From contig CAMUZG010000002.1 in the NCBI GenBank assembly GCA_947165145.1, forward strand, positions 1 to 64,000: a stretch of DNA of 64,000 nucleotides, in the 5' to 3' direction. The DNA comes from an uncultured Selenomonadales bacterium (GTDB taxonomy: Bacteria; Bacillota; Negativicutes; Selenomonadales; Selenomonadaceae). The notes under the pieces were generated by a model. The model searched no databases. It was given only the letters and a program-made list of their open reading frames with translations, and was not told the DNA's origin. Position 1 is the first letter of the stretch. Each line of letters opens with the position of its first letter. Positions 57,950 to 64,000 of the stretch are shown here, one piece after another. The translations under genes and the position numbers were made by a program.

Positions 57950-60037
57950 TTAAGGCTCCGATGCGGGCTCGTAAGTTAAGCCGTTTTCTTCCAGACGTTC
58001 GAGTAATCGCAAAAGTTTTTCGCATTGGAATGGTTGCGGGATTTTCATAGGGATTTTCATTGCAGTTTTCAACGCAGAATTTTCTTCGGCGGACAACAAA
58101 TGCCGTGCCGTGGCGTCCAGAAAAATTTTTTTCCACGTCTCGCCGCTGAACGATAAAACTTTTGCTTGGGCGTCAACTTCAAAGCTTGTCTTTTGAATTT
58201 CTTCGGAAGTTTTCTTTTCTGAGCGAAGTTCTTTACCGCTGATTGTCCACCGCGAAAAATCGGCAGGCAATTCTATTTGCAAGGAATCTTTCATGCGTTT
58301 CCAACATGATTCCTGTTTACACCATTGCGTAACGTTTGAGATTGGTCGGTCGCCTGTAATGAAGTTGTTCACCGACAAAGCTATATCCGCAAAAATTTTC
58401 TCAAAGTCGGGCGGTAATTCCTGCGCTGTCCACACGGCAAGCAAATTCAATTCTCTGTCGGGAAATTTTTTCTTTAGCGCATGATGAAATATTGCTAGCG
58501 AATACGTAACGATATTTGCGCGATAGGATTTTGTTCGTTGATACCACTCTTGTCGCGAAACCAATGTTTCCACTGCGTGAAAGATTATCGCCAGAGCAAC
58601 CGTTTCCCTGAAGTAATGGTCGTTGAATTGAGTTTTGTCTTTGTCCCATGCCGTGCCGATTTCTTCCGCGAATTTCATAAAATTTGCCTGCGCGCCTTTG
58701 CTGACAATATCGGGTCGTTCCTGCCAACTCATGCGGTACTTTGCGAAATCGGTTTTGCTTAGGACTTGCGATTTTGGATTTTTACGTTGGAAAATTTTCT
58801 TTTCACGTTCGGTCATTTTCATTTGCTCTTGAACATATTGCCCGCGTGCCCGCTCGTAAAACCATTGCGTTTGAGATTGTTCGCCTTTTTTGGGTTGTGC
58901 GAAGATTCTACGAGAAATTTTTTCCATTTCGACATGAAAAGGATGCGTCGAAAAGAAATCAGCTTCACTGACTTTGTTTTGGCTGTTCGACGAGCGCGAA
59001 ATTTCCCCGATTAGTTTGTCCTGTTCGCCGGTTTCCATTTCGCCGATTTGCGTCAACTTCATTTGCACGAAAATTTTTTCTAGAGAAACTTTGTCTTTGA
59101 GCCGTGCGTTTAAAAGCAAAGCAGTTGTTTGACCGCCGTTGATGATTTGAAAATCCGTTGCCGCAGTGAGACGAATTCCGTCATCAACATTTTCAAATTC
59201 AAGTTGCTTGGCGGTTGCGGCAATTCCGTTGTTGAAAGCGAAAAACATTTCGGGTCTGTTTAAAATGGTCGCACGAATTTTTTTGTTGACGGCGCGTTTT
59301 GTCGAAAGGAAGGAACGAACGTTGCCCTCCAAAAGCCGGCTACCGTATTGCTCGTAAATGTCGGCAAGAATTTTTCCAGGAATGACGCACAAAAAACTTT
59401 TGCATTCGTTGCCGATGGTTGCGGCTTTCAAACAGGGCAGTCCGTCGGCACATGCCTTGAAATCGATTTTTATCGGTTCGCGAACTTGCAGGGAAGTGAA
59501 CGCCTCAAAAATTCTTTCAATGTCCCAAATTTGGCAGTCAACCTCGGCGTCGCGCACGAAAAATTTTTTTAGCTCCTTGCGTTGAACACTACGTTTGGCG
59601 TTCGTCAGCAAGATGAATTTGATTTTAACGTCGGGCGTCTTCAAAATTTCTGCAAGTTCGGCAACGGTTGTTGATTCCTCGAAAGTTTCGCTTAGCTTTG
59701 TCGTAAGGATTGCGTCGACGAATTCCGCAATCATTTTGAAATTACTTTCCGCCAAAAGTTGCGTCATGTTTTCACGGGCATCGACGTAGCAGACAGCAAA
59801 CAGGATTAACGAATCGTCAGTCTCGTCTTGAATGAAGCCGTCCACTCGCAAATTACTTTTTCTGCGCGGGTGAACTCCTTTAAAGAAGGACGCCTGATAA
59901 TCGCCGTTGAGATATTCCGCGTCGCGCATCATTGCAGTTATTTTTTCGGCGAACGCTGCCGTCGTGCCGTGTCCAAAGTCCAGAGCGTTTCTGCCGACTT
60001 CAGCCTCCAAATCCGCTCGGAATTCCTCAAGGGTCAT
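57950..60037 (-). CDS. AIPR-family (abortive phage infection) protein
   Basis: The 695-aa protein carries the AIPR core (residues ~215-560) with the recurring motifs MFFAFNNGIAATAKQLEF, FQIINGGQTTALLLNARL and EISRSSNSQNKVSEADFF. These proteins occur in restriction-like phage-defence cassettes; their biochemical action is not settled. ATG 60037 overlaps the upstream stop by four bases. It is the last of four coupled genes and ends 117 bp before the FadR gene. Confidence 0.88.
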   Translation of the reverse strand: MTLEEFRADLEAEVGRNALDFGHGTTAAFAEKITAMMRDAEYLNGDYQASFFKGVHPRRKSNLRVDGFIQDETDDSLILFAVCYVDARENMTQLLAESNFKMIAEFVDAILTTKLSETFEESTTVAELAEILKTPDVKIKFILLTNAKRSVQRKELKKFFVRDAEVDCQIWDIERIFEAFTSLQVREPIKIDFKACADGLPCLKAATIGNECKSFLCVIPGKILADIYEQYGSRLLEGNVRSFLSTKRAVNKKIRATILNRPEMFFAFNNGIAATAKQLEFENVDDGIRLTAATDFQIINGGQTTALLLNARLKDKVSLEKIFVQMKLTQIGEMETGEQDKLIGEISRSSNSQNKVSEADFFSTHPFHVEMEKISRRIFAQPKKGEQSQTQWFYERARGQYVQEQMKMTEREKKIFQRKNPKSQVLSKTDFAKYRMSWQERPDIVSKGAQANFMKFAEEIGTAWDKDKTQFNDHYFRETVALAIIFHAVETLVSRQEWYQRTKSYRANIVTYSLAIFHHALKKKFPDRELNLLAVWTAQELPPDFEKIFADIALSVNNFITGDRPISNVTQWCKQESCWKRMKDSLQIELPADFSRWTISGKELRSEKKTSEEIQKTSFEVDAQAKVLSFSGETWKKIFLDATARHLLSAEENSALKTAMKIPMKIPQPFQCEKLLRLLERLEENGLTYEPASEP

Positions 60038-60954
60038 TTATTATTCACCTCTTTGAGTTCGCGCAGATTCAACGAATACGACGCCTCGACTATTGCTGGC
60101 GACAAAGATTTTTTTGTAAGTCGCGGAAAATTTTCGTCTACCGTGAAGCGCATGGTTTCCAAAAGCCGATAACTTTGCTCGTCGTATTCTTCGTGCTCGA
60201 CATAACCCGCCGTGAATAAAAGAGCCTCGAATTTCTGCGCTGCGACTGAACTTTTGCTCAGCAGTTGCAAAAGATTTTTTACCAGAGAATTCAGCGTGAA
60301 GCCGTCCGAAGTTTTCGCCAGACGAAAGACTATCAATTTACCGACCGTTTCAATCGACAGTTGCTCAAGGGAAGGTATTCTGATTTTTTCCGCCTGTTCC
60401 ATGACGGTTTTAATTTCAAACCATGTATCGCCGTAGGAAAAATCTTGCGGCTCTTTCAAAGGTCCCAACCAACCTGTGACGGATTCTTTCAGCGGGCGAT
60501 TGTTTGTTATTTGTTCGCGCAGAAACAGTAATTCGCCGATTAAGCCGCGTTGTTGTTCGGGCGTGAGCAAATTGTTTTTTGCGGCAACGAAGAGATTTTG
60601 CCAATGAGCGTACCTTTGCCAAAAATTTTTTAACGCTGTAACTTCGTCCCGTGTTCCCTCGGCAAAGGTGAGCAGGTCGCGGCACATTTCAAGGAAAACC
60701 GATGATTCTGCCTCCGACATCAAACTCAACGTAAGCGAAAATTTTCCGTCCTTGCGTTGCCGAAAATTTATCTCGACACTTTTGGACGACTGAGGAATTT
60801 TTGTTTCGCGCTTGGTTAGGATTAGCAATGTTCGTCTCAATTTTTCATCATAACCGATATAACATTCCAGCGGCTGTGTATCGACCAACGTGTAGCCGCG
60901 CTCAATTCGTAACGTATTTTCCCACTGCCCGCGAAGTTTTTCAAAGTCAATCAT
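60034..60954 (-). CDS. PD-(D/E)XK nuclease-like protein (DUF4420)
   Basis: The 306-aa protein has the REase-fold residues E141 (GLIGELLFL), D176 and E180-I-K182 (YGDTWFEIKTV), the pattern of the DUF4420 family. It should be the DNA-cutting part of the cassette. It is coupled on both sides by ATGA overlaps to the Z1 ATPase and the AIPR protein, so all three are expected in a fixed ratio. Confidence 0.88.
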   Translation of the reverse strand: MIDFEKLRGQWENTLRIERGYTLVDTQPLECYIGYDEKLRRTLLILTKRETKIPQSSKSVEINFRQRKDGKFSLTLSLMSEAESSVFLEMCRDLLTFAEGTRDEVTALKNFWQRYAHWQNLFVAAKNNLLTPEQQRGLIGELLFLREQITNNRPLKESVTGWLGPLKEPQDFSYGDTWFEIKTVMEQAEKIRIPSLEQLSIETVGKLIVFRLAKTSDGFTLNSLVKNLLQLLSKSSVAAQKFEALLFTAGYVEHEEYDEQSYRLLETMRFTVDENFPRLTKKSLSPAIVEASYSLNLRELKEVNNK

Positions 60955-63662
60955 TCTTCAATATCCTCCTCGTTGCCGACTGCGTTAACAATGAACCTGG
61001 CGGTTTTAACCTGTGATTCGGAAATTGTCGGATCAAGCGCGGGGAAACCGACGCCCAATGCGAACAAAATTTCGGGGATATTGCCGGAGAGTTTTGTTTT
61101 AGGACGAATGGCGAATATAACCAAAAGCGGGCGACGACCATGAATCAGATAGGCATTTTCCGAAACGGATTTGTCTTTCTTCAGCTTGTGGAAGTCTTCT
61201 TCTGCCTGTTTAATTTGTTCCTTCGTCAAACCTGCTTGCGTAGTTGTTGGTGTGCCGACTTGCAAATTTTGTCCGCCGATTTTAATTTCGTCATCGTCAA
61301 CGGTAACGGAACGTTCGACAGGTTTGAACTTGATTTCTTTCCCGCTGACCGTCAAGCCGTCGTAAGTAGCCCCCAAACCTTCGGGAATATACACGTCCCA
61401 AAAATCTTCTTCCAATTCGTAAATGTATTCGCTTATCGGTCGTGCTTGATACCTCGCCCAACTGCCGGTTTTGAAGTTCAGCACGAGTTGCGCGACAAGA
61501 TTTTTTGGTACGTTGCACCATAATTTTTTGGAGTCTTCAGGCTTGGTAAAATTTCCGAGTCCGTCAACGAACTCGCGAATCAAATTGTTATTGGCGTCAA
61601 AAATTTTTTTGTCGTTGATGAGACGTGGCGTCTCCAGGAAAATTCGATTGAGTTCCACGGGACAAACGACTGCGGTGCCGGAACGAATCTTGTTCCTCGC
61701 GGTGATCTCCAAAGTGTCGGGATGGCGACGAACTTTCAAGCCGAAATCTTGCGGAATTTTATTGTAATTTTCCATGCGCATAATCTCTCGCTTGAGTTCG
61801 TTTGAAACTTTTGCGACGTAGCCATACCAGTCGATAATTTCCTGCGAAGTCCAAAGTCGGCAAAGATCGTCATAATTCGGACGATAACCAAACCAACGCC
61901 CCATTTGCATAAGCGTATCATAGAATTTTGAGTTGCGATAGAAATACGTGACGCATAAACCTTCCAACGTCAAGCCGCGCGTGAAACTATTTCCGCCTAT
62001 TGCAATTATGCGCAGACCGTTCGGATTTTGCTCGTAGCTGAAAGTATGTTCGCCGGAAGAATTACGCAATCCGATTTGAATCGGCTCGACGGCACTGCGA
62101 AGGTATTCGTGCAAAATTTTTTCCCACGTCACTCCACTGATTTCTTTCAGATTGTGCGTGTCAAAAACTCTGTGCAGATTTTTAATACAGTCGCTTTCAC
62201 GTTCGGCGTCCGCAACGGGCAGAGCCGCATAAGCCCGCAACTCACTGACAATTTCATGAAGGCGCACGTTGACCAAATCATAAATCTGCGCGTGAACACT
62301 CTTGAATCGGCTGACGTGAATCAACATTGTACGATGCGTTTTCTTGTCGCCGCGCAGATCGCGAATCGCATTGACTAACAGGAAGTAATCCATTGCCGTG
62401 CAAAGACTTTCGGGCAGACCGTCCACCTGCAATGCTATCCGATGATTTTTCGGGAAATAATTTTCCACGTCGGGATAATCAAGCGGAGTTATCGGCACGA
62501 GGAAACTTTTGTACTTGCCGTCTTCGTCGAAAATTGCGTCGGCTCCGATATAATTGTTCGGCACGTCCAGCGAATAAATAAAATCCTTCGGGAACAGGTC
62601 GTCGTTGAGCATACCTTGTTCGTCGAAGGGCATAATGAAAATATTCGCGAAAGGCGTGGCAGTCACGCCTATATAAGTAGTGCGGCTGAAGAGATTTAAA
62701 ATTTTTCGGATAAGATTATTTATGGCAGTCGGTTCCTCGTCCTCGTCGTGCGTGTTTATCGAGGCGTTATCGGCTTCGTCGTCGAGCAAAAGTAGAGAAT
62801 GATTTATCTTGCCCGTGCCGAACTTCACGGAATATTTTTTCAGCCAGTCGAAGAGATTTTTCAAAATGCTTTTGTTCTTCTTGACGACTAAAAGTACCGT
62901 GCCGCTCAAATTTTGCAAACCGAGCTTGAGATTATCGAGCGTCGGGGCTTTGAAGTCCGAAATAACCGACGTGAACTGCGCAATGTCTTTTGTCTGACCG
63001 TATTTCGCCACGCCGACAGGTCTGTTCCTTAAGGTATTGTCTTTCGTCGAGAGAAAAATTTGACTTTCACGACCTGCAAATTCTAAATCCAGTCGCGCTT
63101 GAGTTTGACGGCGCAAGTCTTCAAGCGTTCCCGTAAGAACGATGATAATTTTGTAACCGGTGTCGGCAGCTTTGGCGCACAACGCGGTATAAGTGGCGGT
63201 CTTACCGCTTTGCACTTCTCCGATAATCAACCCGCGGCGATTGAAACTGTCCGTCGAGTTCGGATTTCCCATAAGGTCAAGAATTTTATTCGTTGTCGTG
63301 TTGAGTGCGGCAGTCAAAGCGGGCAACCATTTTTTATCGTGGCGCAAATAATTTTCGTAACGCGTCCAGAAAAACCAGTCGAGATTGCTCTTGACGGAAT
63401 CGAGCCATTTTTTATGTTCGCCGCCCTCGATAAAAGCTTCTTCGCCGTCCATTTGTACAGTAAAATTGGCACGAACCGTGCGCAAAATTTTTTCAAATTC
63501 TTCGTCGGAAACAGTATAGCCCAAAATCGGAAGGATCTGCTTGACTTTCGCGGCAGAAACATTGAATTCGTTATCGCTCGGCGGACGTTCTGCGGAGTTG
63601 GTCAAGTTGATGATGTTGTCGAACACAATGTTTTTCGCAACTTCAAATTCATTTTCTGTCAT
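60951..63662 (-). CDS. Z1-domain SF2-like ATPase of a defence cassette
   Basis: The 903-aa protein has Walker A GEVQSGKT (148-155), Walker B LLLLDDEADN (about 290-300), YIGVTATPFANIF (motif III-like) and the Z1 domain core (EPIQIGLRNS, GGNSFTRGLTLEGLCVTYFYR, MQMGRWFGYRPNY). Z1 ATPases occur with GHKL ATPases, nucleases and AIPR proteins in restriction-like operons. ATG 63662 overlaps the upstream stop by one base (TAATG). Confidence 0.92.
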   Translation of the reverse strand: MTENEFEVAKNIVFDNIINLTNSAERPPSDNEFNVSAAKVKQILPILGYTVSDEEFEKILRTVRANFTVQMDGEEAFIEGGEHKKWLDSVKSNLDWFFWTRYENYLRHDKKWLPALTAALNTTTNKILDLMGNPNSTDSFNRRGLIIGEVQSGKTATYTALCAKAADTGYKIIIVLTGTLEDLRRQTQARLDLEFAGRESQIFLSTKDNTLRNRPVGVAKYGQTKDIAQFTSVISDFKAPTLDNLKLGLQNLSGTVLLVVKKNKSILKNLFDWLKKYSVKFGTGKINHSLLLLDDEADNASINTHDEDEEPTAINNLIRKILNLFSRTTYIGVTATPFANIFIMPFDEQGMLNDDLFPKDFIYSLDVPNNYIGADAIFDEDGKYKSFLVPITPLDYPDVENYFPKNHRIALQVDGLPESLCTAMDYFLLVNAIRDLRGDKKTHRTMLIHVSRFKSVHAQIYDLVNVRLHEIVSELRAYAALPVADAERESDCIKNLHRVFDTHNLKEISGVTWEKILHEYLRSAVEPIQIGLRNSSGEHTFSYEQNPNGLRIIAIGGNSFTRGLTLEGLCVTYFYRNSKFYDTLMQMGRWFGYRPNYDDLCRLWTSQEIIDWYGYVAKVSNELKREIMRMENYNKIPQDFGLKVRRHPDTLEITARNKIRSGTAVVCPVELNRIFLETPRLINDKKIFDANNNLIREFVDGLGNFTKPEDSKKLWCNVPKNLVAQLVLNFKTGSWARYQARPISEYIYELEEDFWDVYIPEGLGATYDGLTVSGKEIKFKPVERSVTVDDDEIKIGGQNLQVGTPTTTQAGLTKEQIKQAEEDFHKLKKDKSVSENAYLIHGRRPLLVIFAIRPKTKLSGNIPEILFALGVGFPALDPTISESQVKTARFIVNAVGNEEDIEE

Positions 63663-64000
63663 TAATCGACACCCCTTAACTTAAACTCTTCGAGTAATTG
63701 CGAATGATGCTTGAATATGTCGTCCTTGGCAAGTGAATTGAGCAACTTTAACACTTCGGCTTTGGACAGTCCTTCCAAGAAGACTTTCAAAATTTTTCGC
63801 GCCTCTTCCTCGGAATACAGTGTGGAATTTTTTATTTCATCACTGCCGTGAAAATCAATCATCAGCTGGTTTATCGGTAATGACGCGGATATTAATTTCA
63901 GCAGGTTTTTGAAATTTTCTTCACAGGCAGGGAATTTTTCAATGAGTCTCAGGAAAATAGGATGGCTTTCGTTTATCTCGTAAGTGATTCCTCCGTCGCG
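63662..64000 (-). CDS. C-terminal part of a GHKL/MORC-like ATPase (partial at window edge)
   Basis: An open frame runs from the window end to a TAA at 63662, at least 112 codons. It reads GGITYEINESHPIFLRLIEKF, then LISASLPINQLMIDFHGSDE and a helical tail (YSEEEARKILKVFLEG). The internal Met at 63862 is not the start, because the frame is open upstream of it. Position before Z1 matches the ATPase seen in GHKL-Z1-nuclease-AIPR operons, and the tail resembles the C-terminal region of that family. The ATPase domain itself would be outside the window. Confidence 0.65.
   Translation of the reverse strand, partial: RDGGITYEINESHPIFLRLIEKFPACEENFKNLLKLISASLPINQLMIDFHGSDEIKNSTLYSEEEARKILKVFLEGLSKAEVLKLLNSLAKDDIFKHHSQLLEEFKLRGVD

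Follow-up and report, generated by a model that had tools for sequence, protein, structure and literature searches.

An intact MORC/Z1-type operon with a C5 methyltransferase, probably a methylation-guarded anti-phage system, in a Selenomonadaceae genome

The window analyzed here comprises the first 64,000 bp of a 114,028-bp contig (C2) from an uncultured member of the Selenomonadaceae, and the contig was also read on past the window edge. Four minus-strand genes close the window (Table 1). An initial annotation had described them as overlapping by 1 to 4 bases, which the open reading frames bear out (in AIPR-to-GHKL order, ATGA over 4 bp, ATGA over 4 bp, and TAATG over 1 bp), although with such short overlaps the "fully overlapping" of its title was an overstatement. 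Its domain calls for AIPR, PF14390/DUF4420, Z1, and GHKL were correct by Pfam. As it had noted, the first gene is cut by the window edge; upstream sequence completes it as a GHKL ATPase with a MORC motif, and the methyltransferase that it had guessed might lie farther upstream is indeed there, a C5-cytosine methyltransferase gene with a TTG start codon, 10 bp upstream of the GHKL ATG. On the upstream side of the methyltransferase gene, and divergent from it, lies groES-groEL, while genes for a GntR/FCD regulator and phoH lie downstream of the operon. All five operon genes are uninterrupted in this genome, and alignment of their products against 38 to 50 homologues showed that essentially all invariant catalytic residues are kept. 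The five-gene operon is a complete, intact copy of a MORC/Z1-type system.

Table 1. Genes of the MORC/Z1-type operon; positions are those of the window or, with the prefix C2, of the contig.
Feature	Position	Strand	Size and profile matches
AIPR-family protein, MzaE-like	57950..60037	(-)	695 aa; AIPR (PF10592) 7e-94, AIPR_N (PF22879) 4e-21
DUF4420 PD-(D/E)XK nuclease (predicted), MzaD-like	60034..60954	(-)	306 aa; PF14390 7e-60
Z1 superfamily-2 helicase/translocase (predicted), MzaC-like	60951..63662	(-)	903 aa; PF10593 8e-75, ResIII 1e-4
GHKL/MORC-type ATPase, C-terminal 112 residues, MzaB-like	63662..64000	(-)	rest beyond window
GHKL/MORC-type ATPase, full gene	C2:63662-65119	(-)	485 aa; HATPase_c_3 6e-34
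C5-cytosine methyltransferase	C2:65130-66215		361 aa; PF00145 2e-69; outside window

The GHKL protein carries the MORC-specific S5 motif (GhXhhpXXRhl) as GFYVYRNKRLI at residues 276 to 286, with G276, Y280, R281, and R284 invariant in 47 sequences. Also kept in the alignment are the N-box (D30-x2-D33-N34-S35), the G1 (D58-x-G60-x-G62-M63) and G2 (LGRFGLGMK) motifs, and the S5 lysines K323/K324. A sequence search of the PDB returned MORC4, MORC2, and MORC3 as the nearest solved structures, ahead of or level with MutL; together with the S5 motif, this substantiates the link drawn earlier to operons around MORC/MutL-type GHKL ATPases. In MutL and most GHKL proteins, a catalytic Glu occupies the position four before the N-box Asn. 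The equivalent position, which by motif we take to be residue 30 (C2:65030-65032, beyond the window), is Asp here and in 98% of the family. In the Z1 protein, the motifs kept relative to homologues are a Walker A (GxVQSGKT, 148 to 155), DDExD (294 to 298), TATP (334 to 337), and an exact instance of DThhQXuRhFG (DTLMQMGRWFG, 582 to 592); its Pfam match to the ResIII helicase domain is weak (1e-4), and a sequence search of the PDB with this protein returned no relatives. The methyltransferase keeps its PC, ENV, and QxRxR motifs. Three more C5 methyltransferase genes or fragments occur in the same genome (G000:C5:37554-38528, C30:13454-13813, and C27:27831-29372).

Two proteins of the operon have structural models that resemble restriction endonucleases, and they differ in their active sites. 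In DUF4420, the residues E141, D171, E180, K182, and Q198 are invariant in 50 relatives, the first four making up an E-D-ExK active site; the model gave weak restriction-fold matches over residues 129 to 306 (SPARDA nuclease, Z 6.1; EcoRV, Z 5.0). We infer that DUF4420 is the cutting enzyme of the system. The AIPR model (mean pLDDT 83, pTM 0.50) has a restriction-endonuclease fold over approximately residues 1 to 186 when compared by VIA-align (AF1548, Z 10.3; AspBHI, 9.5; FokI, 8.7), and this domain is probably not catalytic, because ExK is absent from the corresponding stretch in the aligned relatives. Approximately residues 204 to 354 of the model resemble the N-terminal domains of several ParB-family chains, with a best Z of 6.7 (95 residues, rmsd 3.1) that, lying below 8, falls short of proof, and this segment is tentatively read as a ParB-like domain. 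A near-invariant motif, QI[IV]NGGQT, falls at a strand-helix turn (here QIINGGQTT, 297 to 305), and the remaining C-terminal part is modeled as helical. Foldseek alone found nothing at an E value of ≤0.001 for either the DUF4420 or the AIPR model, and a sequence search of the PDB with AIPR found no relatives. The ParB-like reading is in line with a connection made previously between AIPR and DndB (PMC3506569) and with the finding that DndB is ParB-like (PMC12704722), whereas the restriction fold modeled here conflicts with the assignment of the AIPR N terminus to HEPN RNases (PMC3506569). We propose that AIPR is a ParB-like, nucleotide-binding subunit with a regulatory role or one in contacting DNA, and not the main nuclease.

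A scan of genome contigs recovered 40 homologous loci in Bacteroidota, Campylobacterota, Bacillota, Acidobacteria, and Proteobacteria, 31 of them long (at least 14 kb). The four core genes were present in 29 of the 31 long loci, 28 of which had a C5 methyltransferase as well; Vsr was found in 13. Such repeated occurrence of the same set (28 of the 31) in unrelated phyla means that it is not a random cluster of genes. Within the host family, the distribution is patchy, with a Z1 homologue in 12 of 151 genomes. With a GC content of 0.448, the operon sits at the bottom of the range seen over 84 kb (regional mean, 0.490 ± 0.013), which is consistent with acquisition, and homology to relatives ends at about 57.90 kb on the GntR side and about 66.33 kb on the groES side. 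A clean empty site was not found among the relatives searched: GntR and groES are adjacent in none of them, and one has 13 kb between the two. The operon is probably horizontally mobile.

Comparison of pairwise distances across the window's locus and 26 loci with a methyltransferase within 300 bp revealed that the four core proteins co-diverge: GHKL, DUF4420, and AIPR distances correlated with those of Z1 at 0.86 to 0.91 (none of 1,000 permutations was as high), whereas methyltransferase distances correlated with core distances at only 0.08 to 0.19. The methyltransferase gene also varies in position among loci (up- or downstream, on either strand, and in several length classes), and its tree resolves into deep types, inside each of which the methyltransferase follows the core, but one type has at times been swapped for another. 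The lineage of the window illustrates such a swap. Its core groups with those of Subdoligranulum and Acetoanaerobium (Z1 46 to 48% identical), whose methyltransferases are long and only ~30% identical to the one here; its methyltransferase instead groups with that of Methylotenera (55%), the core of which is distant. Swapping of methyltransferase types is real yet occasional. A stronger idea, that the methyltransferase is freely exchangeable, had to be softened, since the methyltransferase and core trees have many recent splits in common (7 to 8 supported splits with GHKL, Z1, and AIPR; 4 with DUF4420). A search for a core segment that tracks the methyltransferase gave Z1 676 to 736 as the best candidate, which was rejected (r = 0.26, below the permutation 95% limit of 0.27). 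As methyltransferase type does not track the core at deep distances, a fixed common recognition sequence fits poorly. It is conceivable, if rather unlikely, that AIPR combines a ParB-fold nucleotide switch with a dead restriction-fold domain for DNA binding, and that the complex reads C5 methylation in general, which would make C5 methyltransferases swappable.

Copies in the same genus, which are apparently draft assemblies in which single defects could be assembly errors, are damaged in different ways; of the five members of the genus that gave a match in the sample, only the genome of the window has an intact copy. In the two closest relatives (G134 and G121; Z1 71% and 67% identical), an HNH-like open reading frame on the opposite strand stands in place of the methyltransferase 3' end and of the ATPase-encoding part of GHKL; either these copies no longer function, or the system can do without GHKL. 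This frame (L095:1129-1839, minus strand; L096:8682-9392, plus strand) encodes 236 aa, matches PF01844 just under the cut-off, and has differing deletion endpoints in the two genomes. A homologue of it (59%) with one internal stop lies near a partial C5 methyltransferase frame in a third genus member (G070). Elsewhere in the genus, one copy (G117, L097) has GHKL, Z1, and AIPR, with DUF4420 and the methyltransferase not found near it, and another (G040, L114) has Z1 split by a frameshift, and a search of 13 kb there found no AIPR, GHKL, or methyltransferase gene.

We consider, at a probability of about 0.75, that the operon is a methylation-guarded, ATP-driven, restriction-modification-like anti-phage system of the MORC/Z1 type. 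That reading starts from what was observed (which genes are present, their order and overlaps, the retention of catalytic residues, the repeated occurrence of the set, and co-divergence of the core), and its functional steps, which we infer, reach beyond residue conservation. The patchy distribution in the host family, the low GC content, and the reported validation of the related Mza system also speak for it; against it stand the scores below the Mza cut-offs, a methyltransferase type that fails to track the core at deep distances, and the loss of the GHKL ATPase domain in the two nearest relatives. The C5 methyltransferase would mark host DNA and so guard it, while the four core proteins would form one complex with phage as the target. 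The GHKL/MORC protein may be a DNA clamp gated by ATP, and the Z1 protein a translocase powered by ATP; the two would load onto unmarked (phage) DNA, travel along it, and license cleavage by DUF4420. An action in which DUF4420 cuts, and MORC clamps, DNA without the host mark at the expense of ATP appears most likely because the Z1 protein is homologous to that of CglI/NgoAVII, which depends on its R partner to hydrolyze ATP on unmethylated cognate DNA and is required for cleavage (PMC4267653). The ATPase activity of the homologous N.CglI is stimulated by DNA and requires the R partner; N.CglI dimerizes via Z1 and drives cleavage (PMC4267653).

An alternative in which GHKL and Z1 sense phage DNA, AIPR is the toxic effector, causing cell death or arrest, and the methyltransferase is an antitoxin-like guard draws on the name of AIPR (abortive infection), on the frequent occurrence of AbiU/AIPR genes beside restriction-modification genes (PMC3506569), and on a match of the AbiU model to the AIPR protein of the window at 6e-21. 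We judge it quite improbable, given that the AIPR N terminus is modeled as a restriction fold without ExK rather than as the HEPN RNase of that account, and that DUF4420, with its invariant active site, is the better nuclease candidate. Another possibility, that the locus is a decaying or non-defense remnant of a mobile island without current function, would suit the genus copies described above, with their losses of GHKL, of DUF4420 and the methyltransferase, or of an unbroken Z1. It seems very improbable for the genome of the window, in which five uninterrupted genes retain the residues expected of active proteins.

Eukaryotic MORC chromatin proteins have been proposed to be related to, and to have originated from, bacterial MORC proteins. 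An intact five-gene copy and neighbors missing single parts together form a natural series for asking which parts are needed, and the pattern of methyltransferase swaps leads to a testable prediction on recognition of self-DNA. The initial annotation had called the mechanism of such operons little known, and the literature searched indeed yielded no account of how a bacterial restriction system of the MORC/Z1 kind works; the operon type itself is less mysterious, having been described in 2008 (PMC2292703) and 2022 (PMC9523054).

In the first of these accounts, by Iyer, Abhiman, and Aravind, the prokaryotic MORC restriction operons include a third type (PMC2292703), which shares with the operon here a MORC GHKL+S5 ATPase, a superfamily-2 helicase with Z1 and DThhQXuRhFG, a restriction-fold E-D-ExK protein, a cytosine methylase, and AIPR. 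Its GHKL+S5 motif, helicase motif, E-D-ExK residues, and neighboring cytosine methylase were all found at this locus; the one difference found is the lack of a Vsr endonuclease in the operon, and none was found in the 83%-complete genome assembly. Miller et al. re-found the set in 2022 as a putative "type II" defense system reminiscent of Mza, which is called validated there (PMC9523054). The match to that "type II" set is one of domain content only, covering Z1, DUF4420, C5 methyltransferase, AIPR, and a MORC-family gene.

Mza itself (mzaABCDE) is reportedly from Gao et al. (2020). PADLOC and NCBIfam models of MzaB, MzaC, MzaD, and MzaE match GHKL, Z1, DUF4420, and AIPR, respectively, with gene order also shared (PADLOC 8e-77, 3e-117, 3e-23, and 4e-71), but all four miss the NCBIfam equivalog cut-offs, at 313/850, 472/1,500, 128/420, and 309/1,050 bits, or 29 to 37% of the required scores. 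A C5 methyltransferase gene heads the operon here and no mzaA sigma-factor gene adjoins it, groES being the gene upstream of the methyltransferase; the MzaA model matched only the C-terminal part of sigma-factor-like genes on other contigs, as it did in most control genomes. The operon is therefore a relative of Mza and not Mza proper. With CglI, NgoAVII, and BceSIV, it shares the pairing of a Z1-helicase ATPase with a C5 methyltransferase, whereas their nuclease, a PLD-B3 R-protein, is replaced here by DUF4420, MORC, and AIPR (PMC4267653); Pfam found no PLD or B3 domain in any operon protein. The system is thus of a type already known, with no sign of a novel kind, and the present analysis makes modest additions to it: co-divergence of the core with methyltransferase swaps, and a restriction-fold domain and a tentative ParB-like domain in AIPR.
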